Shown piece after piece: positions 6,742-22,871 of a stretch of 22,871 nucleotides of DNA. The position numbers were made by a program, and so were the translations under genes. The stretch is taken from positions 1 to 22,871 of the IMG/VR virus record IMGVR_UViG_3300032665_000198; one strand, written 5' to 3'. The first letter of the stretch is position 1, and each line of letters opens with the position of its first letter. The notes beneath the pieces are model-generated. The model did not search any database, was not told where the DNA came from, and saw only the letters and a list, made by a program, of their open reading frames with translations. The stretch comes from a virus.

Positions 6742-9700
6742 TTACCCCTGTCTTCCCTCTGACCATGCAGTCGAGAAATAGCGCCCAAAGTTCCTAAGAG
6801 ACGGGTTTTTCTTTTCTATGCTCTGAATAACCGCAGCCCTGATTTTGGGGTCAGGGTTTTCCAGCATCTTCATGGTGCCTGTATCCGACAGAACATTTGC
6901 CAAAGCCGCTTGTTCAGACATATAGCGGTCGTCCGAATAATCGCGCCGGAAGGAAGATTCGGCATTTTGTCCACTATAAAGGCCCGAAATGCCACCGTTG
7001 GCAGAATTATACTTGTCATATTCGTTAAAATAATTGCCCTCGTCCACGGCCCGCTGATTATCAACGTACATTTTGGTTATCAAATTCATTGCGGCAGGTC
7101 TAGACATTCCGGCGTTAGACACCATTTGCATCCACGCCCTTAAAGCACCAAAGCTGCGCTGATCAGCATTTGCCTCACCAGACGCAGCAATAGACCTAGA
7201 CAACTTTTCTGCCTCTTGAGAATTTGCAAGTTGGTCAAGCTTGACGCCCTGCAAACCAAGGTTAGGGGCAATAGAATCCCACCATGCACCAAGATTAGTC
7301 ATAAATGGATTCAACTTGCCCGGTTCAAACGGTCCGGTTTGTCCTGCCATAGTCTCGGCAAATTTCTTAAGCTGCCGGGTATTATTAGCTCCAGAAGCTG
7401 CCTCATTATTTACTTCTTTGATCTTCTCATTTGACATGCTCAACAAGCCCGGATCCATCCTTGCTGACATGAAAAACTTATCGGCGTCGTTAGCCGCGCT
7501 TTGCTTGCCTACGTCGCCTAAATAGTCGTATTGAGCGGCAATTGGAGGATTAACCCTGTCATCCATGACGTATTGGCCGTTTTGATTTTTTGTAAGGGGG
7601 CCACGCAACTTTGTGACATCGACATACTCTAACTGAGTTTGCCCGTTAGCAAGGGTATGAAGAACAGGGACAATCCCACCGCGCCCAGCAGCGGCCAGTT
7701 CACCAGTTGCCTGAGCCTGCCGCAGGGCAACCTGAGACTGCTGTGTCTGCAAGTCAGGAACGGCTTGAGCAGCCGCCCCTACACCCTGAAGCAACGCACC
7801 GCCAAAGTATCTGCTTGGCGACGACGCCATTGTACCGACGCCCTTCAAAAGAGGGAATAGCCAGCTTTCATTGCGGTCCATCCAAGTACCGGGCTTACCT
7901 TGGTTGATACCAAGCTGACGTTCCGCCCAGTCACCAGCGCGAGTCATAAAATCCCCGCCCTGACCAGTATCCGACGGGCCAGCCGGAGCAGGGCTTGCAG
8001 AGGGCTGCGCGGCTTCGGGCGCTAGACCCTTTTGATACGCAGGCGAACCAGCAAGGTCGCTGCTGATAGGGGGTGGCGGATTACCACCGCCAAGGCCCGG
8101 ACGGGACAGTTGCTGCATTTGGTCGAATACATTTGGCATATTCGCGGTTAATGCATCACCGCCTGCCGACCCAAGCGTTGCTTGCTGATCAGAGGTAAGT
8201 GCAGGTGGCGTTATGGGTGCTGCATTTTTAGGGACAACACCTCCCGGCACAGTACCAGAGGTATTACGACGCCCCGGAGGCGTTGTATCTACAATTTGTT
8301 CTTGCGGCCCAATAGGATTTCCTCTTTGTGCGGCATGCCAGAAATTGCTTAACGCATTTCCCGTCTCATGAAAGAATTTTGTTGGGTCGTCAGAACTACC
8401 TAATGAATTAATACCACCGCTGATATTCTTAGGCCAATTAGGATCACTGGTTGCATTGTTTTGTGGTGCTAAATTACCAGAATCCTTTAAACTCCATGCT
8501 TGCGTAAACGGAGAGTTATCTGCATCAGCCCAAGCCTGAATCAAGGGGTCATCATCAACTCCACCGTCTGTTGCATACCCGTGACGCGCGGCTCCGCCGC
8601 TTGCAAGTTCAAGGGCACGATGCACATGCGGATTTACGCTGCCGCCACGCGAAAGAAAGGCTAGTAGTGCCGATCCTGCGTCTGCTAACGCTCCGGTACT
8701 AGACAAAAATCCGCCTGCTTCTGTTGCGGTATTAAGAGCGTTTCCAAGGCCAAGCAATGAAGATGCTCCGCCTAAAATGCCTCCGCCCCCTCCGCCAGAA
8801 GAAGGAGGCGGCGACGGAAGGGAAAGTTTGTTATCAGATGTATCCTTAGCCGCTTCCGTTAAGCCCGGAATAGAGGTTGGGACTTCTGAATCAGATGAAA
8901 CACCGCCTGAGTCAGAAACATGACCTCCGTCATCATAACCATGCCGATATGCAGAACCACCGTGAGCAAGGGCTAGGGCTGCAATAGAGCCAATATCTTT
9001 AGCCATGTCGAAGAGTCCCTTGCCGGTGTTATAAGCACCGAGAGCGGAATTTGCGGCACCAAGAACACCGGAACCACCGGCACCCTGACCCGGAGCGCCC
9101 GGAGTTTTAAGGCCAGCGGGGGCATTGTCACTCTGTGCGGCAGCGGCCAAGCCGGGAATAGACGGCCCAACGGGTTTATAAGGATCATCATCCGTGCCAC
9201 CAGCGGCGCGGTGACGGCGGACTAGGCCACCTGAATAAAACGGGGATGTAGGATTTCCGTTTTCATCAAGATACTCATTTGCCGTCATAGACGTAGGCGC
9301 TTGGCTTTCGGAAGATGTATCAGGAGGGGCGTCTTTAGACTTACCAAAAGCATCTTGGTATATTTCTCTTGCGCCCGCATAGTCTTTTGTAACATCACCA
9401 GCCGCACCCATAACTTGGGCCATGGTCGATTCCGGCAACTTCGGAATTGCTCCAGCAGTCACAAGGTGAGATACCGATCCAGTCGGCGGCGGGACATAGC
9501 CCATGCTGCCGACACCAGTACCCGAAGCAGGGACGCGGCCAGCGCCGCCATACAGACCAAGGGCCTGAGCCTGAGCCTGCAAGATACCGGCAAGGTCAGC
9601 CGCACTAATCACTGACGGAGAGCCGCCATCCGCGTATCCCTGACCAGCACGGAGCGGAGTTACCGCCCCGCCCTCAGAATGCGGGACTAGACCACCCTTG

Positions 9701-10983
9701 CGGAAATGGCCGCGTTTCGCAGCCGCGTCCGTGGCCTTGTCGTAGTCAACAGTCCGGTACCCACCGGCCAGACCAACCGCATCAGGGTGGTGCTTCTCAA
9801 CATCCTGCGCGATAAGGCCAATGCGCGTTCCCGGTTCGTTCTTGTACCGGAACTTGACGATCTTCTGGCCGTCAAAGGTCTTACCAATCGGCTCGATGTC
9901 TTCCTTGAGCCGCTTATCCGAGAAAAACGGCATTGGCTGCGCCGTGGACGTAGTAGACCCGGACAGCGCACCAGTGCCTTCGGCCACGTTCGCAACCGCC
10001 TGAGCCGTCTGGAAGGGGTAGCCCTGTTGCTGGAGGAACTGGTTGTAGAGCGCCGACAGGCCAGCCTGCTGGGTCTGCTGCGCAAGTGTACCAGCACCGA
10101 TCTGCGCCTGACCGGCACCAAGAAGGTTCTGCTGGGCCTGAGTGCCCAAGCCAGCCAAGGTGGTGCCAGTGCCAACGCCCTGCGTATATGCCTGCTGCCC
10201 GACCCCAGCGAGGCCCTGCGCCAAGCCCGTGCCCTGCCCGTAAGCCTGCTGCCCGATGCCAGCCAGACTGGAGGCACCCTGCTGTAGGGCCGCGCGGTTC
10301 GCCTGCGCCGCCCCAAGATTAACGCCCTGCTGCTGCTGGGCCGCACCCAGAGCCTGATTGTAACCCTGATTTAGGGTATTGGCGTACACGTTCTGGGACG
10401 CAATCTGCTGCTGCTGGGCCAAATTCGCCGCCGCAAGGCCAGCCCGGTCCCCACCAAATGCCCCCTGATTTATGGCGTTGCCCAACTGACCAGACATCTG
10501 TTGCTGGTTCTGCTGGTTCTGCAAAGCCTCCTGCGCCCCCAAAACGGTATTGAGATAGGGCGACATGAAGCTGTTGATCTGCCCCGCACCAATCTGCTGG
10601 GCGTTAACCGGGCCAGTGCCAGCCATAGCCAGACCCGTAGCCATCTGGTTATAGGGCTGCGCCTGATTATACGCCCCTTGGTATGCGCCCGTAGCGGCCT
10701 GATTGTACCCCTGACCCGCCTGCGTCCCCTGCATGATGCTGGACGTACCAGCCTGAAAATAGGGCTGGGCAGCATTCGCTGCCATATTGGTCGTATCAAT
10801 ACCGGCCTGCTGCTGCTGATTTATCGGGGCAACAAATGCGTTTGGATTACCCTGCGGAGCATTATAGGTCTGGAACGGCTGCGTGGCAGCAGACTGCATC
10901 ATATTGTTCGCAAGCTGATAGTTTTGCAGTACCTGCTGCGGTATCTGCACCTGCTGCGTAGTAGTACCTGTCTTGCCGCCCAT
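6742..10983 (-). CDS. Very large virion protein with an internal S74-type domain
   Basis: This is a 1413-residue protein in four visible parts. Residues 1-350 are Gln/Ala/Gly-rich with QQQ and GQ repeats. Residues 351-415 form an S74-like domain: FFSDKRLKEDIEPIG (Ser355, Lys360), KFRYKNEPG, RIGLIAQDVEKHHPDAVGL and YRTVDYDKAT. Residues 425-1005 are Gly/Pro/Ser-rich, probably flexible, with recurring GG...H...GG motifs and an internal duplication. Residues 1005-1413 are more ordered and helical (GDWAERQLGINQ to FSTAWSEGRQG). I recognise the N-terminal plus S74 arrangement from phages of Alphaproteobacteria, without a proven role. Position just ahead of the transglycosylase gene suggests an internal or ejection protein. 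It starts two bases after the GNAT stop, with an AAAGG nine bases before the ATG. Confidence 0.75.
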   Translation of the reverse strand: MGGKTGTTTQQVQIPQQVLQNYQLANNMMQSAATQPFQTYNAPQGNPNAFVAPINQQQQAGIDTTNMAANAAQPYFQAGTSSIMQGTQAGQGYNQAATGAYQGAYNQAQPYNQMATGLAMAGTGPVNAQQIGAGQINSFMSPYLNTVLGAQEALQNQQNQQQMSGQLGNAINQGAFGGDRAGLAAANLAQQQQIASQNVYANTLNQGYNQALGAAQQQQGVNLGAAQANRAALQQGASSLAGIGQQAYGQGTGLAQGLAGVGQQAYTQGVGTGTTLAGLGTQAQQNLLGAGQAQIGAGTLAQQTQQAGLSALYNQFLQQQGYPFQTAQAVANVAEGTGALSGSTTSTAQPMPFFSDKRLKEDIEPIGKTFDGQKIVKFRYKNEPGTRIGLIAQDVEKHHPDAVGLAGGYRTVDYDKATDAAAKRGHFRKGGLVPHSEGGAVTPLRAGQGYADGGSPSVISAADLAGILQAQAQALGLYGGAGRVPASGTGVGSMGYVPPPTGSVSHLVTAGAIPKLPESTMAQVMGAAGDVTKDYAGAREIYQDAFGKSKDAPPDTSSESQAPTSMTANEYLDENGNPTSPFYSGGLVRRHRAAGGTDDDPYKPVGPSIPGLAAAAQSDNAPAGLKTPGAPGQGAGGSGVLGAANSALGAYNTGKGLFDMAKDIGSIAALALAHGGSAYRHGYDDGGHVSDSGGVSSDSEVPTSIPGLTEAAKDTSDNKLSLPSPPPSSGGGGGGILGGASSLLGLGNALNTATEAGGFLSSTGALADAGSALLAFLSRGGSVNPHVHRALELASGGAARHGYATDGGVDDDPLIQAWADADNSPFTQAWSLKDSGNLAPQNNATSDPNWPKNISGGINSLGSSDDPTKFFHETGNALSNFWHAAQRGNPIGPQEQIVDTTPPGRRNTSGTVPGGVVPKNAAPITPPALTSDQQATLGSAGGDALTANMPNVFDQMQQLSRPGLGGGNPPPPISSDLAGSPAYQKGLAPEAAQPSASPAPAGPSDTGQGGDFMTRAGDWAERQLGINQGKPGTWMDRNESWLFPLLKGVGTMASSPSRYFGGALLQGVGAAAQAVPDLQTQQSQVALRQAQATGELAAAGRGGIVPVLHTLANGQTQLEYVDVTKLRGPLTKNQNGQYVMDDRVNPPIAAQYDYLGDVGKQSAANDADKFFMSARMDPGLLSMSNEKIKEVNNEAASGANNTRQLKKFAETMAGQTGPFEPGKLNPFMTNLGAWWDSIAPNLGLQGVKLDQLANSQEAEKLSRSIAASGEANADQRSFGALRAWMQMVSNAGMSRPAAMNLITKMYVDNQRAVDEGNYFNEYDKYNSANGGISGLYSGQNAESSFRRDYSDDRYMSEQAALANVLSDTGTMKMLENPDPKIRAAVIQSIEKKNPSLRNFGRYFSTAWSEGRQG
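8560..9162 (-). repeat. Internal protein duplication within the 1413-aa virion protein
   Basis: Two diverged units lie in tandem at residues about 608-688 (8920-9162) and 704-808 (8560-8874). Each starts with P/T-SIPGL..AA, passes through a Gly-rich LG-A-S-LG segment, and ends with an HGG/RGG stretch and RHGY..DGG. The DNA between has drifted, so this is an old duplication rather than a recent slip. Confidence 0.6.
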
Positions 10984-10985
10984 AG

Positions 10986-11468
10986 TTAATGACCTTTGTA
11001 GCTACCAGTCGTAGCGCCATAGAGGAAAAAAGCACCAGATTGTTCCCCAAACTGACGCTCATAAAGTTTGATTTTACCCTTGGTCCGGTGATTGCTCAGG
11101 ACACCGATCACCAATGGAAGACCAATAGTGTCCGAAACCTTCTTTGCGAAATCGCACAGCATCCGGGCACGGCCCAGCTTCGCGCCACGGAACTCAGGAC
11201 GAACAAAAATAGCCTTTTCTTCGATCACATAATCGTCTGAGTACCACATCTGCCCAATCCGCAGCAGGATCACCGCCTCTGCGGGCTCCCCCTTCTTGCC
11301 GCAAATGCCGACTAGGCCCTGCTGCAAAGTGCATCCAGCGTAGATATTTTCCAGCAACTTGCGGGTACTGGGGTTATTGAACCCGTTCTCTTTGCAGGCC
11401 GACAGCGCAAGGGCCATGATGTCATCGACATCTTCCGGCGTCCCCACCCTGATCTCTATTTGTTCCAT
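10986..11468 (-). CDS. GNAT-family N-acetyltransferase
   Basis: This is a 160-residue protein with the GNAT layout: an N-terminal strand and helix (IEIRVGTPEDVDDIMALAL), a central strand (AEAVILLRIGQMWYSDDYVI), then the acetyl-CoA-binding motif (EEKAIFVRPEFRGAKLGRAR, residues 84-102, with RGAKLG at 94-99), and a late KLYERQFGEQSGAFFLYG segment typical of motif B. GNAT enzymes move an acetyl group to an amine. Its target is unknown; being encoded between virion genes, it may modify a particle protein or a host factor. AGGA with a six-base spacer precedes the ATG. The 205-aa gene stops two bases upstream of this start. Confidence 0.85.
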   Translation of the reverse strand: MEQIEIRVGTPEDVDDIMALALSACKENGFNNPSTRKLLENIYAGCTLQQGLVGICGKKGEPAEAVILLRIGQMWYSDDYVIEEKAIFVRPEFRGAKLGRARMLCDFAKKVSDTIGLPLVIGVLSNHRTKGKIKLYERQFGEQSGAFFLYGATTGSYKGH

Positions 11469-12094: not shown

Positions 12095-12439
12095 TCACGA
12101 ATAACTGATGGTCAGAACCTGACTGGTTCCGGGCACCACCACGATGCCAATGCTCACGGGTAAGTTTACGATATAGACGCCCACAGCCTGCGGTATGATG
12201 TAGATGAGATTTGCCGTCGAAGTGGCTAGGTTGGTGTCGTATATCTTTCCGGTAGTCGATCCCGCAGTCGTGACGCTAATACTGGCAACCCGGCCAGCAT
12301 TGGCAGACACCAGCGTAGTCGCGGAAATCTGGGATGTGTTCTTGGCACCCTGAACATTAAGATACGTTGTCGCCGCACCGTTAAGCGCAGTAACAATGTT
12401 CTTCGTAGCTGTCAGGATGTCTGAAAGTGATGTTGTCAT
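12095..12439 (-). CDS. Small beta-rich protein of the tail/head-completion region
   Basis: This is a 114-residue protein. An N-terminal helix (SDILTATKNIVTALNGAATTYL) is followed by a beta-rich, Thr/Ser/Ile-rich domain (ISVTTAGSTTGKIYDT through IVVVPGTSQVLTISYS). Its ATG shares a base with the stop of the nozzle-like gene (TGATG at 12437-12441), so the two are probably produced together. I recall similar small proteins next to adaptor/nozzle genes, but cannot name the family. A decoration or tail-completion role is a guess from size, composition and position. Confidence 0.65.
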   Translation of the reverse strand: MTTSLSDILTATKNIVTALNGAATTYLNVQGAKNTSQISATTLVSANAGRVASISVTTAGSTTGKIYDTNLATSTANLIYIIPQAVGVYIVNLPVSIGIVVVPGTSQVLTISYS

Positions 12440-14790
12440 CAGAATTTCCCATCAGGCTGCATACGGTAGCGAATGTTTCCAATTCGCCAGAAGCTGCCAA
12501 CATCGCTGCTGCCTAGGGTGATGGATGTCAGACGCCCACGGAAACGCGGCGAAACATACTGCGTAGCCTGCGTCAGCGTATAAGTCTGCGACGTCTGCGG
12601 AGTATCGCCGGGGTAATCTACATAGTTGAACGTCAGATTGACGTTGGCATTCTGCGTGCCACCGTATAGGCCCCACTTCATGTCGGGCCATACTTGGTCA
12701 ACAAAAGTCTTCAAGTCTGCCTCAGCCATCGTGAAATAGCCAGTCGTGAAGTAAGAGTTCATGGCTGAGCCGTCAGCGTCGAACAAAACCTGACCGTTGT
12801 AATTTTCGTGCTGGTAAATATAGAGCGTATTGGGATCGGCCCCGATGGGAGAGCCAAGCACAGACTGGTCAATCCACGCCGATCTACCCAGATTCCCAAA
12901 GTCCCATGTCTGAAGATATGCATTGTATTTGATGTAGGCGTTTACCTCGCCGCCATCACTAATGGTCGGGTAGTACCAAGTAATCTCTCCAAACAGGGAA
13001 TTTACAGCGGTCCTGATCTTATCAAGATTCGTGGTATCAAGGTCTTGGAAGATGACGTCCCACGCCGGACATGCAACCGGCGTTACACCTGAACCTGTCA
13101 GGCTGTAAAACTGCGACCGCCCCATCCAATAAACAACACCATTGAAAGACGCAGCAGCTTTACGCGCTATCAATCCGCAAGTCGTGCCAATCTCGTTGAA
13201 GGAATAAACATACGGCGGGCCGATATATTGCATCGACCAAATACCAATATCTGTCCAGATAAGCGCCTGCTGCGATGACTGGAGGCAACCGACAATCTTG
13301 GAACCCTTGGGGATTCGGTATGAACCAGCCTGATTGATGACCGTGGCAATCCAACTATTGTAATTATTGACATCGCACCAACGTATCAAAAGGGGATCCT
13401 GTACACCCGTGAAGGTTGATCCCCAAGCAACAATCTGGCGCTGCGGCATCGCCACAAAGAACCCGTCATTTACAGGTGGCCCCTGCGGAATAATTGTAGC
13501 CGTTGGATTGCCGCCAGTCGGATCCCACTGATAAATCGGCTGAAATTGCGGGCTGTTCGTAGTGATCGTGCCAGCGGTCGGGGACGAAACAGCGCACGAA
13601 ATCAGTATTTGGCCCCAGTTATCAAGTGACCATGTGGACGCCGATATGGGGGTGCCAGTAGATGGCGTAATCGCAGTGCCAGACCCGTAGCCACCCAGAC
13701 CATAGCCCAAGACGCCATAGCCAGTGCCAACCGGAATAGCCCCAACCCCAAAGCTGTAAATATACTGCGCGTTTCCGCCGTTCAGATAACCGCTGGTTGT
13801 TGAAGACGCAGTATTAGAGCCGTTGATGATGAACTGGGATGTATTCAGGACGCTTTGGACAATGTAATTGCCGTAAAACGTAATGCCGCCAATGGTCGTG
13901 GTGACGATAACCGGAAAAGTATCGCCTACATTGTACCCGTGATTCGGCAGCGTAACCGTGGCTTGGTTGGATGCGTTCGTGACATTGAATAGCGGAAGTA
14001 AAACCACGGACTGCGTGGTCATGGATTCAGACCCCACAGTCTGGCTGATGCTCACCTGCCAAGTCGTGGCAGTAATCTGCGCCAAAATAATAGTGTTTGT
14101 AGCAATACCAGTGCCGAGCAAAACCTGACCGGGATATAGCGTCCCGGTGATAGCCCCCGGAATGGTTAGCGTCGTGCCGGAAATAGAGCCGGTAAATGAT
14201 GCAATAGTCGATGCAGATGTATATGCCGCTGGCAGGGGATTGCCCAAAACATTTGTAGCAACAACATTATACTGAGTGGGAGAAATGAAACCGTTCTGAT
14301 CAATCGGATACAGACCGTACAGAACAACGCCACCAATGCTGAGATGCGTTGTAATATAAGCAGTATCGTAATTTGTTAAATTTTCAATCGTAGTGTCTGT
14401 GATGAGAATAATCGGACTTCCGGCAGTAGATGATGCTACAGGCGTTATATTGTCACCCGATGCTTGCGGCGTAATGTCAACAATTGAAGAGCTAAGAGTC
14501 GGATTTGTTATGACGGCCAACTGTGCAGTCGTGGTGGACGCAATGTTCTGTGTGCCAAGCGCCAAGTGCGAATTGACGTTTGTATCCTCCCAAGCCCACA
14601 GCGCCCTGACGGGCGCAACAGTTTTAGATGAATTAAATTTGGTCCAGCCGCCCAGTTTCTGGATCAGCCCGCCAAGCTGCTGGTCATAAATGAACCTAAT
14701 CAGATTACTAACCGAAATCCCTGTCTGGTTAAGGGCTGGCGTTTCATTCTGATTAAGGCCGGGGATCAGCTTTACTGCTGCATGGGGCAT
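12439..14790 (-). CDS. Nozzle/tail-hub-like protein (P22 gp10 or T7 gp12 type role)
   Basis: The start is placed at ATG 14790, giving 783 residues, because it makes a TAATG overlap with the upstream adaptor stop. A longer reading to 14841 adds a Cys/His-rich leader that lies inside the adaptor gene. The N-terminus (AVKLIPGLNQNETPALNQ, then SNLIRF and KLGGWTKF) and ALWAWEDTNVNSHLALGT match what I remember of podovirus nozzle or DNA-stabilisation proteins, which form the tail tube end. Two beta-rich stretches at about 195-262 and 268-345 interrupt the protein and look like Ig-like or similar inserted modules. The C-terminal half is a large beta-rich domain (ALIWTDIGIWSMQYIG, YWMGRSQFYSL), fitting a propeller-like fold. 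The exact family is inferred. Confidence 0.7.
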   Translation of the reverse strand: MPHAAVKLIPGLNQNETPALNQTGISVSNLIRFIYDQQLGGLIQKLGGWTKFNSSKTVAPVRALWAWEDTNVNSHLALGTQNIASTTTAQLAVITNPTLSSSIVDITPQASGDNITPVASSTAGSPIILITDTTIENLTNYDTAYITTHLSIGGVVLYGLYPIDQNGFISPTQYNVVATNVLGNPLPAAYTSASTIASFTGSISGTTLTIPGAITGTLYPGQVLLGTGIATNTIILAQITATTWQVSISQTVGSESMTTQSVVLLPLFNVTNASNQATVTLPNHGYNVGDTFPVIVTTTIGGITFYGNYIVQSVLNTSQFIINGSNTASSTTSGYLNGGNAQYIYSFGVGAIPVGTGYGVLGYGLGGYGSGTAITPSTGTPISASTWSLDNWGQILISCAVSSPTAGTITTNSPQFQPIYQWDPTGGNPTATIIPQGPPVNDGFFVAMPQRQIVAWGSTFTGVQDPLLIRWCDVNNYNSWIATVINQAGSYRIPKGSKIVGCLQSSQQALIWTDIGIWSMQYIGPPYVYSFNEIGTTCGLIARKAAASFNGVVYWMGRSQFYSLTGSGVTPVACPAWDVIFQDLDTTNLDKIRTAVNSLFGEITWYYPTISDGGEVNAYIKYNAYLQTWDFGNLGRSAWIDQSVLGSPIGADPNTLYIYQHENYNGQVLFDADGSAMNSYFTTGYFTMAEADLKTFVDQVWPDMKWGLYGGTQNANVNLTFNYVDYPGDTPQTSQTYTLTQATQYVSPRFRGRLTSITLGSSDVGSFWRIGNIRYRMQPDGKF

Positions 14791-15806
14791 TACGGGCCTC
14801 GCGCAGGCGTGGAAACAGGAGCGGGTGACATGGCAGACCAAGCATTAGCTTGGAACTTCTTGCGCGATTCCTCGACCATCGCGCCCTTGAGCAGGGTTTG
14901 ATACTGGGCCTCATAGGAGCCCGGCATCTGCGGATCATTGGAAGTCGGCATGAAATTGCGCTGGTATTGGCTGATGTAAATCATGCTCGCCTGAACCAAA
15001 AGGTCAGGCAGATAGGTGCTAATAAACGTCGTTCCAGTATTGGCAGTCGTAGATGCATAGGAAATGACGCCAGCAGCAGTCTGAGTGCCTGTAGCGGAAC
15101 TCGCAAATGTAACCGACGTAGTTGTGGACGATAGTATTGTCCATGTTCCGTTATAGGCCGTTGGGGTAACGCCACTAATCGTAATGAGCGTACCCGCAAC
15201 CGGAGCGGCAGACTGGGCTGCAAAGGTGACCGTTGCCGTTGCGCCGTTGCCTGAAGTGCTGAGTGTCGCGGTGGTAAAGAGCGGCGTGGTGGCAGAATTG
15301 CTGTACAAAGTCGGGGTTCTGATCGTGCCAAATACTGTCAGCGGGTATGTCGCGTTCGCATACGGCCCAAACAGAATGTTATTGTAAACATCGCCACCAG
15401 TAGAGAGGTCACCGCCAACCATGGCGAAATACTGCGGAATACCCGTCGAGGATGAATTTGCCCAAACATTTTGGATATACTCCTTACTCGTCGGGATTAG
15501 GGGAACAATCGTTCCAGAATTGTTCAATTGAACGGTCTGAACCGTCACAAAATCATTTACAGATAGCTGCAAGGTATTAGACCCGCTGCTCAGGGAATAG
15601 GTATTGCTCGTCAGTGACGGCAAAAGGTCCACATCACGCTGAATACGCAACTCGGCGTAATTGAGCATTTGCGGGATAATTGTGTTGAAGTAGGGATCGA
15701 CGCCCTGATACACGCCATTTACAACTTGGCTGCCAACGACTGCCATCGTGGCAATCTGCTGAATATACCCATTATAGGTCATAGGCGTCGTATTCGGGGC
15801 AGTCAT
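14790..15806 (-). CDS. Adaptor/gatekeeper-like head-tail connector with an Ig-like insertion
   Basis: This is a 338-residue protein. The N-terminal region (MTYNGYIQQIATMAVV, DPYFNTIIPQMLNYAELRIQ, RDVDLLPSLTSNTYSL) and the C-terminal helices (TFISTYLPDLLVQASMIYIS, then a long basic helix) resemble podovirus adaptor proteins such as T7 gp11 or P22 gp4, which bind the portal and start the tail. Between residues about 178 and 253 sits a Thr/Ser/Ala-rich beta segment (GTLITISGVTPTAYNGTWTI...) of the Ig-like kind found on phage surfaces. The adaptor core can be read continuously if it is removed. GGAG with a seven-base spacer precedes the ATG. The role is inferred from pattern and from the following nozzle-like gene. 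Confidence 0.72.
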   Translation of the reverse strand: MTAPNTTPMTYNGYIQQIATMAVVGSQVVNGVYQGVDPYFNTIIPQMLNYAELRIQRDVDLLPSLTSNTYSLSSGSNTLQLSVNDFVTVQTVQLNNSGTIVPLIPTSKEYIQNVWANSSSTGIPQYFAMVGGDLSTGGDVYNNILFGPYANATYPLTVFGTIRTPTLYSNSATTPLFTTATLSTSGNGATATVTFAAQSAAPVAGTLITISGVTPTAYNGTWTILSSTTTSVTFASSATGTQTAAGVISYASTTANTGTTFISTYLPDLLVQASMIYISQYQRNFMPTSNDPQMPGSYEAQYQTLLKGAMVEESRKKFQANAWSAMSPAPVSTPARGP

Positions 15807-15820
15807 TTCAGTACTCCAAC

Positions 15821-16267
15821 CTAATCCGGCAAAAGCGCCGCTTCGGCTTCCCGCCTAGCCACAAGGCCGGGCAATACTTTGCCCCCACCATGGACCCACA
15901 GTTTAAGTTGCGCCCTAGCCAAATCCCAATCACAGGCATCCAAAGCAAGCAGTAAAGTACTGTCGCGCAACTTGCCAATGCCAAGGTTATAACAGAAATC
16001 TACAATTGCGTTTAGTGCTTTAGTGTTTTCCGCGAGCTTTGGACAGATTTTCAGTACGCCGGGGAGAAACTGTGTCTCCAACATATGCATCATCAGGTCA
16101 AACGCCTGATCCTGCGTAATAGGACCATCAGACAAAGTGACGGCAGTGCCGTCTTTGTAGTGTGTCGAACCGTAACCAATAGTGGGGATGCCAGCGGGGC
16201 AGAGATACGGTTTGTCTCTAAATCCCTCGAAGGTCTTCACAAGCTCGGCGGCAAGAGACAGGTCCAT
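15821..16267 (-). CDS. Endolysin, GH24 lysozyme (muramidase)
   Basis: This is a 148-residue protein, the usual length for a single-domain phage lysozyme. The N-terminus shows the E-x8-C-x5-T catalytic signature: Glu14 in FEGFRDKPYLCPAGIPTIGYG, Cys23 and Thr29, then GYGST. NAIVDFCYNLGIGKLRDSTL and a Trp-containing helix before VLPGLVARREAEAALL match the C-terminal lobe of the family. It cuts the glycan backbone of peptidoglycan. No signal peptide or N-terminal membrane anchor is visible, so release needs a holin. Its ATG shares a base with the stop of the holin-like gene (TAATG at 16265-16269). Confidence 0.92.
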   Translation of the reverse strand: MDLSLAAELVKTFEGFRDKPYLCPAGIPTIGYGSTHYKDGTAVTLSDGPITQDQAFDLMMHMLETQFLPGVLKICPKLAENTKALNAIVDFCYNLGIGKLRDSTLLLALDACDWDLARAQLKLWVHGGGKVLPGLVARREAEAALLPD

Positions 16268-16491: not shown

Positions 16492-18363
16492 TTATTCAGC
16501 CTTCTCCTTGGGGGTTTCAAGAATGAGCCTGAGATTAGCCTGAAGCCTTTCGTTCTCCGGTTCAAGATTGGCCGCAATCGTGGCGTGTTTTATGGCTTCG
16601 TCCTGCATGCCCATGTGCCACGCCGCAATGGCGGCCAGATCGTGGGGCTTGGCTCCCCATACCGTGGGATCACAGGTGTAAACCAGATCGCGGTTTACCA
16701 CTCCAATGGCTCGCATAGCGGCGGCATAGCAGTCAGGCCACTGGTTTTGCCGGAACTTCAGCAAGGCCAGATCGCACCACGGCTCACGGGTATTGGGGGC
16801 TTCGGCACACGCCTTGTGGTAGGCAGCCTCTGCCGACCACTGGTCGCCCTTGTTCTCATATGTCTGACCCAGAAGACGGTACGCATAGCAACGCTCATTC
16901 ATCCACGTTGCTTCTGGCATGGTCAGATAATGGTTCAAGGCGTCTATAGCTTCGTTGAGTTTCCCATAAAAGGTCAGCTCACGGGCGTAATAGAAAGCGT
17001 TACGCGGGCATCGGGGGTCTTCTTTGACCGACACCGCCAGCAAGTCCAGATATTGGCCCCGGCTCTTGAGGGGATCAGGGTGATGGCTGACCAGAAGCAT
17101 ATCTGTGTCGGCCCATACCTCTTTTGTTCTGGGGTCTGGAATCGGATACTCATGGCAGGGGTGGTGCCACATATATCCCTTGCGGTGATGGATTTTCTCA
17201 TACTTGAACTTAATCCCGCTGCCCCAATCAAAATAATAGCGCAGCCGGGTTGTTTCCGGCGTCCAGACGCGCTCAATTTCCTCACGCCAGCCGGGTTCAA
17301 GAATTTCGTCTAAGTCGAGCGAAATGCAAACGTCCATATCAGGCGGCACAAGCGCCAAGGCAACATTGCGAGCCATATCAAAGCGCCAAGGATTGATACA
17401 AATACTATGGACATCCACGCCAGCAGCCTTAGCGGCGGCAATAGTGCCGTCCGTACTGCCGGTATCAGCAATGAGTACATGGTCAGCCTCCTTGGCGGAT
17501 GCAGCAAAGCGTTCCACAAACGCTTCTTCATTCTTACTAATGGCATAAACACATATTTTCAAACGCTTGTCTTGCATGGCTTGCTCCCCTGCATATTTCC
17601 CAAATAGCTCAGTAAATAGGTTATGCTCTGTTCTCAGATAGTGGTCGTTTATTTTCTGAACGTCGTCGGCCCAGATTGTCTCCCACATATGCAAGCAGTA
17701 AGACCCGTCTAACCGGGACTTATCTCCATTCCCAAAGATCAGCTTGTCCATGAACCCAAATGGTATGAACGCCTCTACTTCCTGCAAGGCAAACACGCTT
17801 GGGTCTTTTCGATACATCTCAAAGGGCAGCACAACCGCATGGTTGGCCCAGACATCCGGCTTGATGGCGGCGGGAATCGCTTCCAGCCATTGCCGAATAA
17901 ATTCATTGCTGCGCTCGGCCAGAATTACACCATTTGCCACAGAGGCAATCTGATCGGGGTCCGTAGTATGAAGTCCGACCCTATCATCGGTATAGCGGTC
18001 AGCCCCCATGACGCAGGAATTGTCCATCAATGGCGTCAAGGGCTTCAGCAGCAGGATATCGGTGTCCAGATATATACCGCCATGCTCAAGCAGCTTCTCA
18101 AGCCGCACAACATCTGACTGATACTGGGGATAATCCAAACTGATCCCGCCAATCTCCGTTGGCGGGTTAATCTGAACTAGCGTGACATAAGGCTTGATGG
18201 CTTCCCAGTGCGGATTATTGGCCGGTTCAATGTTATAATAGAAATAGTATTGGTCCGGCTTCTGGACTTCAGCCGCAATCTTTACCGCCAAATAATTCAA
18301 AAACCCGAAGTCGCGTGACTTCGGGCCTGTGAACCACATCATGTGAATGATGTTGGGTATCAT
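16492..18363 (-). CDS. Double glycosyltransferase (GT32-like + GT2-like) with TPR repeats
   Basis: This is a 623-residue protein in three parts. Residues 1-255 are a sugar-transferase domain with a DXD motif: MIPNIIHMMWFTG, SDVVRLEKLLEHGGIYLDTD (Asp100, Asp102) and ILLLKPL, as in capsular-polysaccharide/GT32-type enzymes. Residues 266-450 are a GT2-like domain: ICVYAISKNEEAFVERF, HVLIADTGSTDGT (Asp300) and CISLDLDEILEPGW (Asp350, Asp352). Residues 465-605 are TPR-like helical repeats (GQTYENKGDQWSAEAAYHKA and similar). No membrane segment or signal is seen, so it acts in the cytoplasm. Target could be a virion protein or host surface glycan precursor. It lies between fibre and lysis genes. 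A strong internal ribosome-binding site and ATG sit at the domain junction. Confidence 0.85.
   Translation of the reverse strand: MIPNIIHMMWFTGPKSRDFGFLNYLAVKIAAEVQKPDQYYFYYNIEPANNPHWEAIKPYVTLVQINPPTEIGGISLDYPQYQSDVVRLEKLLEHGGIYLDTDILLLKPLTPLMDNSCVMGADRYTDDRVGLHTTDPDQIASVANGVILAERSNEFIRQWLEAIPAAIKPDVWANHAVVLPFEMYRKDPSVFALQEVEAFIPFGFMDKLIFGNGDKSRLDGSYCLHMWETIWADDVQKINDHYLRTEHNLFTELFGKYAGEQAMQDKRLKICVYAISKNEEAFVERFAASAKEADHVLIADTGSTDGTIAAAKAAGVDVHSICINPWRFDMARNVALALVPPDMDVCISLDLDEILEPGWREEIERVWTPETTRLRYYFDWGSGIKFKYEKIHHRKGYMWHHPCHEYPIPDPRTKEVWADTDMLLVSHHPDPLKSRGQYLDLLAVSVKEDPRCPRNAFYYARELTFYGKLNEAIDALNHYLTMPEATWMNERCYAYRLLGQTYENKGDQWSAEAAYHKACAEAPNTREPWCDLALLKFRQNQWPDCYAAAMRAIGVVNRDLVYTCDPTVWGAKPHDLAAIAAWHMGMQDEAIKHATIAANLEPENERLQANLRLILETPKEKAE
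17575..17590 (-). promoter_or_regulatory. Internal ribosome-binding site and ATG at the glycosyltransferase domain junction
   Basis: On the minus strand AGGGGAG (17590-17584) is followed six bases later by an in-frame ATG (17577-17575), which is codon 263 of the glycosyltransferase. It precisely begins the GT2-like domain (MQDKRLKICVYAISKNEE). Translation from here would give a 361-residue GT2-TPR protein. It may be active or a relic of a former separate gene. Confidence 0.5.
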
Positions 18364-19320: not shown

Positions 19321-20412
19321 TTACAGCTCCGCCGTAAACTGCCACACGGCATTATTAGTTACGTCAGCCCAACAAATTGCAGGGCGTCCTGTGGTAAATC
19401 CGCCGCCTGATGCATTAAAATCAAACTGCGCGCGTTGGTTAGAAAGATAAGATGCGGCAACACCAGTTACTGCACCAGTAGCACTGCCATCATATAAGCG
19501 CGTTGTTCCGCTACCTATTACATAGGTGGGGGTCGCCCTCATTGTTACAATCAATGGCATACTGCAACGATTGGCTAGTGTAGCTGAACTAAAGACGCCG
19601 GTAAACGGCGGGTCTATATAGGTTTGGAAGTACCGCTGACACTGCGCCAACTGCGCCTGATACTGGTTGAACTCATACGGCGTGGCGATGGTGCCAGCTT
19701 CGAGTTGGACGCCTGTGATGTAGAAGGTAGCGTTAAGGGTACCAAGAAGGTTAACCGCGCCGGTTGCAGAAGCAAAATTCCCTGCTGTCCACACGCTTGC
19801 TGTTGTGCTGTATGTTGTCCCCATACCAAGAGAAAACATAAGATCCATCCCAACCCCATTAGTAGTTAGCCATGTACCGGATGTATCGCCGGGGATTGTG
19901 ATGGTGGCATACGTCCAAGTATTTGCTACAGGGATGGAATATGTAAACGCATAACTACGGTTTTGCGCGCTGTTCCGTATTGCACCGCCGAAAGAGCCTG
20001 TTGCGCTAGAATACGCCCAAAATGACAGGGTGACAGACTTGGCATTGGCGCTGCCCCAATTCAAATCAGCGATATTGTAGCCTTCAATTCTTTGGTCAAT
20101 TAATGAGAAATCATTCGCCCCCAAAGAAATAGTCGTAGTTACTTTCGCTCCAAGATAATTTGAAAAACCTACCGGTGGCGTAACAGCGCCATAATTTTGG
20201 CCGAAAGTGACTTTGGACGCTTGGGAAATAAATGCGGCCCAGCGGTCAATTATATAGACGTTAGCACTCGTTGCAGAAGGCACAATTGTTCCACCCGATA
20301 AGTACTGATCTATCGCCGTGTTGCCATTGATGATCCGGTTCTTACCAACGTACGGGCCACCAGCGGGACTGGACGTAAGCTGACCAAGGCGGGTGGTTAG
20401 GTTCGCTACCAT
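19321..20412 (-). CDS. Tail fibre / receptor-binding-type protein
   Basis: This is a 363-residue protein. The start (TTRLGQLTSSPAGGPYVGKN, then RIINGNTAIDQYLSGGTIV) and IIDRWAAFISQASKVTFGQN follow a pattern I know from many phage fibre proteins (KNRIINGN...DRW). The middle is a beta-sandwich, carbohydrate-binding-like region (VTLSFWAYSSATGSFGG; YAFTYSIPVANTWTYATITI), with FYITGVQLEAGTIATPYEFN and LAQCQRYFQTY after it. These are typical markers of this fibre family. It likely contacts the host surface. It lies four bases after a 48-residue gene and downstream of the collagen-like fibre, so the right end of the window is a receptor-recognition module. Confidence 0.8.
   Translation of the reverse strand: MVANLTTRLGQLTSSPAGGPYVGKNRIINGNTAIDQYLSGGTIVPSATSANVYIIDRWAAFISQASKVTFGQNYGAVTPPVGFSNYLGAKVTTTISLGANDFSLIDQRIEGYNIADLNWGSANAKSVTLSFWAYSSATGSFGGAIRNSAQNRSYAFTYSIPVANTWTYATITIPGDTSGTWLTTNGVGMDLMFSLGMGTTYSTTASVWTAGNFASATGAVNLLGTLNATFYITGVQLEAGTIATPYEFNQYQAQLAQCQRYFQTYIDPPFTGVFSSATLANRCSMPLIVTMRATPTYVIGSGTTRLYDGSATGAVTGVAASYLSNQRAQFDFNASGGGFTTGRPAICWADVTNNAVWQFTAEL

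Positions 20413-20898: not shown

Positions 20899-22871
<1,973 letters not shown>

Follow-up and report, generated by a model that had tools for sequence, protein, structure and literature searches.

The locus and its operon

The window, by which we mean the entire stretch of DNA analysed here, is a linear contig of 22,871 bases from an uncultivated phage represented in IMG/VR. The original prediction for this contig was that one gene combines a GT32-like glycosyltransferase, a GT2-like glycosyltransferase and a TPR domain, and this is indeed the case: the gene is a continuous open reading frame, and its domains are detected by Pfam, by PHROG and in a structural model. The features relevant to the present analysis are the following.

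16492..18363, minus strand: GT32 - GT2 - TPR fusion protein, 623 aa, ATG start (open reading frame and translation, Pfam, PHROG, AlphaFold2 model)
17572..18363, minus strand: GT32 (Gly_transf_sug) domain, aa 1-264 (PF04488; nearest solved folds YeGT and PaToxG, Z ~16)
18058..18066, minus strand: DxD metal-binding motif DTD of the GT32 domain (D100, D102), invariant in 12 relatives
17059..17562, minus strand: GT2 (GT-A fold) domain, aa 268-435 (PF00535; nearest folds SunS/ThuS)
17305..17316, minus strand: DxD-type motif DLDE of the GT2 domain (D350, D352, E353), invariant in relatives
16498..17058, minus strand: TPR superhelix, aa 436-622 (helical pairs in the model; TPR_14 over the cut-off in relatives)
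20899..22869, minus strand: collagen-like (Gly-Pro-Thr-rich) tail fibre, the proposed acceptor, with its 5' end beyond the window (PF01391, 1.9e-36; tail-fibre PHROGs)
19321..20412, minus strand: second tail-fibre protein, between the collagen fibre and the enzyme (phrog_4492, 2.1e-43)
15821..16267, minus strand: phage lysozyme (endolysin), downstream of the enzyme (PF00959, 1.1e-30)

In minus-strand order, the enzyme gene is preceded by the genes for the collagen-like fibre, a DUF7936 protein, the second tail-fibre protein, a 182-aa protein and a 70-aa protein, and is followed by those for another 70-aa protein, the lysozyme, virion structural proteins (of which one matches a transglycosylase), an additional tail fibre and an Rz-like spanin. 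The predicted virion and lysis setting is thus confirmed, with fibres upstream and the lysozyme, virion proteins and spanin downstream, all on the same strand. The collagen-like fibre belongs to the same operon as the enzyme, at a distance of 2.5 kb and four genes, and contains at least 87 Gly-X-Y triplets, with Thr at the Y position in 68, of which 48 are Gly-Pro-Thr. Elsewhere in the window, a virion protein of 1413 aa (6742-10983) harbors a Peptidase_S74 (endosialidase chaperone) domain at aa 355-403, that is, not at the C-terminus where such self-cleaving chaperones are normally found; the adjoining gene of the virion operon (10986-11468) shows a weak match to GNAT acetyltransferases (PHROG 1249).

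Domains, catalytic motifs and predicted structure

The match to PF04488 (GT32-like, DXD) covers aa 75-117 (5.4e-10; 40.3 bits versus a cut-off of 23), and that to PF00535 (GT2) at aa 275-363 is marginal in the window protein (5.9e-5; 23.5 bits versus a cut-off of 23.3), with scores of up to 31 bits in its relatives. At aa 493-534, TPR models score below their cut-offs (TPR_14, 21.2 versus 23.5); the cut-offs are exceeded in close relatives, by TPR_14 in L017 and by TPR_2 in L042. PHROG 13126 matches aa 269-622 over nearly the whole profile (1.9e-101). Mutation of the metal-binding aspartates across homologues, which the original prediction named as an observation that would speak against it, is not seen: D100 and D102 are invariant among 12 GT32 sequences, and D350, D352 and E353 among 32 phage sequences as well as in a 20-row set that includes bacterial ones.

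The AlphaFold2 model, built on a 32-row alignment (mean pLDDT 82, pTM 0.59), comprises a glycosyltransferase domain, a second one with a GT-A fold and a superhelix of helical repeats; the fold of the TPR region is TPR-like. Block pLDDT is mostly 90 or more for aa 270-616, and the GT32 half contains weak loops. The closest structures to the GT32 half in the Foldseek and VIA-align comparisons are YeGT and PaToxG; those closest to the GT2-TPR half are SunS and ThuS (Foldseek, 4.5e-17; VIA-align Z of 21.6-22.9, with a large rmsd across the two domains). The presence of the TPR half, together with the SunS/ThuS fold, points to a peptide acceptor.

Linkage to collagen-like genes in phages

The GT2-TPR half (~355 aa) is a member of a widespread family that adjoins genes for Gly-X-Thr collagen-like proteins. 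When phage loci were selected by the enzyme only, made non-redundant and filtered on upstream length, a collagen-like ORF was found upstream, on the same strand and within 4 kb, at all 22 loci with at least 5 kb of upstream sequence; with the requirement relaxed to at least 2.5 kb, the linkage holds at 34 of 36 loci, and in 16 of these 34 the two genes are within 200 bases of each other or overlap. Threonine accounts for 62-63% of the Y positions in the linked phage collagens, compared with 31.6% across all bacteria according to a review (PMC8968730). Annotated records that carry the enzyme-collagen pair include Actinomycetia phage DSL-LC01, a faecal phage clone and a plasmid of Peribacillus.

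The converse comparison starts from the collagens. Among viral stretches found by pattern, the GT2-TPR family is present in 16 of 107 with Gly-Pro-Thr repeats and in none of 106 with Gly-Pro-Gln/Lys repeats (p 2e-5). In a whole-record control limited to records of at least 15 kb, a GT2 match in a frame of GT2-TPR size or in a known fusion occurs in 13 of 39 Gly-Pro-Thr records versus 0 of 31 Gly-Pro-Gln/Lys records (p 0.0003). The generic rule that any GT2 enzyme accompanies a Thr-rich collagen was considered as well and is weak (21/39 versus 8/31, p 0.03); it is the GT2-TPR family that yields the strong signal. Among phages that share the virion gene at 12439-14841 of the window and have enough upstream sequence, a Gly-Pro-Thr collagen is present in 7 of 8 with the enzyme and in none of 12 without it, counts that are uncorrected for kinship. 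Because on the tree of this backbone the enzyme changes state only about four times (the collagen, five times), this particular test is weak once kinship is considered: the few independent pairs nearly all agree and are too few for significance.

The association also has exceptions. L375, a phage with the enzyme and a long upstream sequence, shows no collagen-like ORF there, and the enzyme is absent from 91 of the 107 Gly-Pro-Thr phage stretches, many of which are short. Some enzyme-bearing phages (L010, 3054-5099; L007, 72-2525) also encode another Gly-X-Y fibre, which is poor in Thr and has Asn-rich repeats (GGAGNAGGAGNPG...), and L010 carries a Gly-Pro-Thr fibre in addition. In phage DSL-LC01 (L483, 4442-6013), a gene annotated as tryptophan halogenase is located between two collagen genes and the glycosyltransferase.

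Bacterial members and the boundary of the family

Members of the GT2-TPR family with 39-54% identity to the corresponding half of the window protein are encoded in bacterial genome contigs from Bacilli, Clostridia, Actinomycetota, Pseudomonadota, Verrucomicrobiota and other groups; since many of these contigs stem from metagenome assembly, there are surely some prophages or mis-binned phages among them. A collagen-like ORF is found at 30 of the 53 bacterial loci, with a median gap of 58 bp and Thr at 64% of the Y positions. Since Gly-Pro-Thr repeats are confined to a few clusters per genome in seven whole genomes, a chance neighbourhood should be rare. The other 23 loci have no collagen-like gene nearby, and these include the tandem enzyme genes of Lacrimispora. 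In Lacrimispora, Hungatella and related Clostridia (L417, L420, L425, L428, L431, L436, L439 and L471; ~8000-10240), two GT2-TPR genes overlap in tandem, and the retrieved stretches of these eight loci contain no collagen-like ORF.

Distant members of PHROG 13126, with 26-35% identity, are found in the jumbo phages PaBG, Lu11, HRDY3 and JA29 and in an Alcaligenes phage (L487, 8022-9296; L486, 8001-9101; L488, 8007-9113; L489, 8001-9101; L490, 7974-9092). In these phages, the gene occupies a fixed place between the DNA ligase gene and the genes for the head protease and the major capsid protein, with no collagen nearby, and the distant forms probably act on a different virion acceptor. Because these distant members lack a collagen-like neighbour, we limit the collagen claim to the close subfamily and do not extend it to the whole PHROG.

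Shuffled domain architectures

A scan of 2.9 million viral contigs yielded 80 loci for the full protein and more for the GT32 half; with the GT32 half alone as the query, there was no match among named phages. The order GT32-GT2-TPR, for which the original prediction proposed a database search, recurs in homologues down to ~53% identity and so is not unique to the window, and the same parts also occur in other orders. Among the non-redundant cores from all sets, GT2-TPR alone is represented by 175, some of which may be shortened by contig ends, followed by methyltransferase-GT2-TPR (17), the GT32-GT2-TPR order of the window (8), methyltransferase-GT2-TPR-GT32 (5), methyltransferase-GT32-GT2-TPR (5) and GT2-TPR-GT32 (4). 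In L084, GT32 is encoded by a gene of its own that overlaps the end of the one for methyltransferase-GT2-TPR. A quick tree of the core, with some long branches, shows 21 changes of architecture, and the N-terminal and C-terminal positions of GT32 belong to different clades. That these parts have been fused again and again is good evidence for a shared product on which they act, and the attachment of GT32 and the methyltransferase to the core in varying orders fits a machine that starts, extends and caps a glycan.

A methyltransferase-GT32-GT2-TPR protein close to the phage versions is encoded on a contig of 4.7 kb assigned to an Anaerolineales MAG (L403, 495-2768), which is probably a mis-binned phage contig. 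Fusion to the methyltransferase exists in bacteria as well, given that two Brevibacillus species encode a methyltransferase joined to a diverged GT2-TPR core, followed by a second GT2-TPR gene (L410, 7398-8990 and 8860-10080; L411, 7176-8978 and 8948-10090).

Proposed function and alternatives

The observed domains, intact motifs and fold class, the tight linkage to Thr-rich collagens in phages and in several bacterial phyla, and the repeated fusions form the basis on which we consider it probable that the gene encodes a soluble multidomain O-glycosyltransferase that acts on the collagen-like tail fibre of the phage itself, in which GT2-TPR starts the glycan on Thr and GT32 extends it. From these observations, we infer the acceptor, the donor sugar, the glycan, the order of the steps and the benefit to the phage as follows. 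In the first step, the GT-A domain, which carries the DxDE motif, would add one sugar to Thr at position Y of a Gly-X-Thr chain that the TPR superhelix would hold; if SgtA of Clostridioides difficile is taken as a guide, the donor in this step may be UDP-GlcNAc, giving GlcNAc. The fused GT32 domain would then attach a second sugar, and the SAM methyltransferase that is fused in some relatives might cap the chain. The sugars on the Gly-Pro-Thr repeats could make the fibre stable, hydrated and protease-resistant in a virus that has no prolyl hydroxylase; alternatively, the benefit could consist in protease resistance or masking. For synthetic repeats of Gly-Pro-Thr, the formation of a stable triple helix depends on galactose on Thr, as in the cuticle collagen of a vent worm, which would explain why phages lacking prolyl hydroxylase need such an enzyme. 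A 2OG oxygenase of the prolyl hydroxylase type (PF13640), considered as an alternative stabiliser, is present in only 1 of 26 enzyme-bearing phage records and so is not the general answer. The two-step construction of a glycan that was proposed originally is plausible, given that GT32 and the methyltransferase have repeatedly become joined to the GT2-TPR core, and is what we infer here. More tentatively, tailed phages might possess a dedicated modular pathway of collagen glycosylation, in which an SgtA-like initiator, a GT32 extender and a methyltransferase cap, fused in shuffled orders, would build a short methylated oligosaccharide on the Thr residues of Gly-X-Thr tail fibres, replacing proline hydroxylation in the stabilisation of the triple helix.

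The alternatives concern the acceptor. The enzyme might modify another protein, such as the capsid, a different tail protein or one of the host, in the way that GmaR modifies flagellin, so that the linkage to collagen would only reflect the co-transfer of receptor-binding cassettes. GmaR appears among the structural and sequence matches, the distant family members adjoin head genes without a collagen, and mycobacteriophage capsids bear glycans (PMC11256854). However, the enzyme is missing from phages whose collagens are of the Gln/Lys type and from related phages with different fibres, and the enzyme-collagen pair is found outside phages too, with gaps of tens of bases; we therefore regard a different protein acceptor as unlikely. 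Glycosylation of phage DNA at modified bases occurs in some phages and has been suggested for glycosyltransferases of freshwater actinophages (PMC10202952). In the present case, it appears extremely improbable and was rejected: the gene sits in a late structural and lysis operon, no base-modification gene is recognised within the window, and the bacterial relatives adjoin collagen-like genes.

The original prediction left the choice between virion glycosylation and a change of the host receptor. In the latter scenario, the enzyme would alter LPS or another host glycan and thereby change the receptor and block superinfection. Reports on freshwater and marine phages have proposed such a role for their glycosyltransferases (PMC10202952, PMC7029224), and PHROG as well as some records designate the family a beta-1,4- or LOS glucosyltransferase. 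Nevertheless, this scenario appears quite improbable. No LPS genes are recognised within the window, the TPR half and the SunS/ThuS fold favour a peptide acceptor, and Thr-rich collagen-like genes accompany the close subfamily on a plasmid and on bacterial chromosomes as well, including those of Gram-positive bacteria, which lack LPS, so that this branch of the prediction is left without support. By contrast, the linkage to Thr-rich collagens supports the virion branch, with a fibre as the target and the TPR repeats holding it, and narrows the target to a Gly-X-Thr collagen-like fibre. Glycosylation of the fibre thus is far likelier than a change of the host surface. Neither the link to collagen nor the SgtA precedent figured in the original prediction.

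Implications

Glycosylation of phage virions, namely of mycobacteriophage capsids, and glycosylation of the bacterial collagens BclA and BclA3 are already known; new elements are the proposed substrate, a phage fibre, the wide occurrence of the enzyme-collagen pair and the fused modules that would extend and cap the glycan. Among 5.39 million open-access papers, we found none that ties a phage glycosyltransferase to a collagen-like fibre, and we found no account of the stabilisation or decoration of phage Gly-Pro-Thr collagen-like fibres. Gly-Pro-Thr-rich fibres are encoded by many environmental phages, and the linkage suggests a concrete substrate for a group of phage glycosyltransferases usually interpreted as enzymes that modify LPS or DNA, making the glycosylation of phage fibres directly testable. 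If the proposal is correct, the one-chain enzymes could be used as tools for the production of glycosylated collagen in bacteria.

Comparison with known systems

Glycosylation of a collagen encoded by a virus is not without precedent, given that Mimivirus glycosylates its own collagen. There, the reaction is performed by a bifunctional lysyl hydroxylase/glycosyltransferase, as cited in a review (PMC8968730). In mycobacteriophages, the glycans are on the capsid protein (cited in PMC11256854), rather than on a fibre as proposed here. PHROG 13126, nearly the whole profile of which is matched by the GT2-TPR half, is named 'beta-1,4-glycosyltransferase', a name that should not be passed on to the window enzyme. 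Like the peptide S-glycosyltransferases SunS and ThuS, the phage protein combines a GT2 catalytic domain with a helical-repeat domain, and the acceptor of SunS and ThuS is a peptide; unlike in those systems, there is no bacteriocin gene nearby, and the identity is ~17%. The window protein has no listed match to the SunS family model TIGR04195, and the scores of two bacterial relatives, at about 15 bits (best, 15.4), fall short of the cut-off of 350. GmaR of Listeria is a TPR-bearing protein glycosyltransferase with a GT2 domain that targets flagellin and is also an anti-repressor; its GT2 domain is matched by profile (3.6e-11), whereas its gene setting is different.

The most relevant precedent is SgtA of C. 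difficile, a protein of 358 aa with a GT-A domain (1-260) followed by TPR (262-358), the gene for which is located immediately upstream of bclA3 (Aubry et al. 2020, PMC7157674). In vitro, SgtA transfers beta-O-GlcNAc from UDP-GlcNAc to Thr of synthetic collagen-repeat peptides, and the enzyme that extends this sugar could not be identified in C. difficile (PMC7157674). Glycosylation of bacterial collagens is known for BclA and BclA3 (PMC8968730, PMC7157674). The window protein shows the same arrangement of a GT-A domain and TPR over ~355 aa (268-622), with an intact, invariant DxD-type motif as expected of an enzyme of the SgtA type, and its gene is similarly found near a Gly-Pro-Thr collagen-like gene, within the same operon in the window and at the phage and bacterial loci enumerated above; for the phage family, we likewise propose protein Thr as the acceptor. 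The phage enzyme differs in being fused to GT32, and in its relatives also to a methyltransferase, and in having as its neighbour a tail fibre instead of a spore coat protein. Judging by the published description of SgtA, as opposed to its sequence, the phage enzyme most likely works in the same way. The present observations extend the SgtA-BclA3 pair to phages and several bacterial phyla, and the fused GT32 and methyltransferase suggest the form that the extension and capping step, missing its enzyme in C. difficile, might take.
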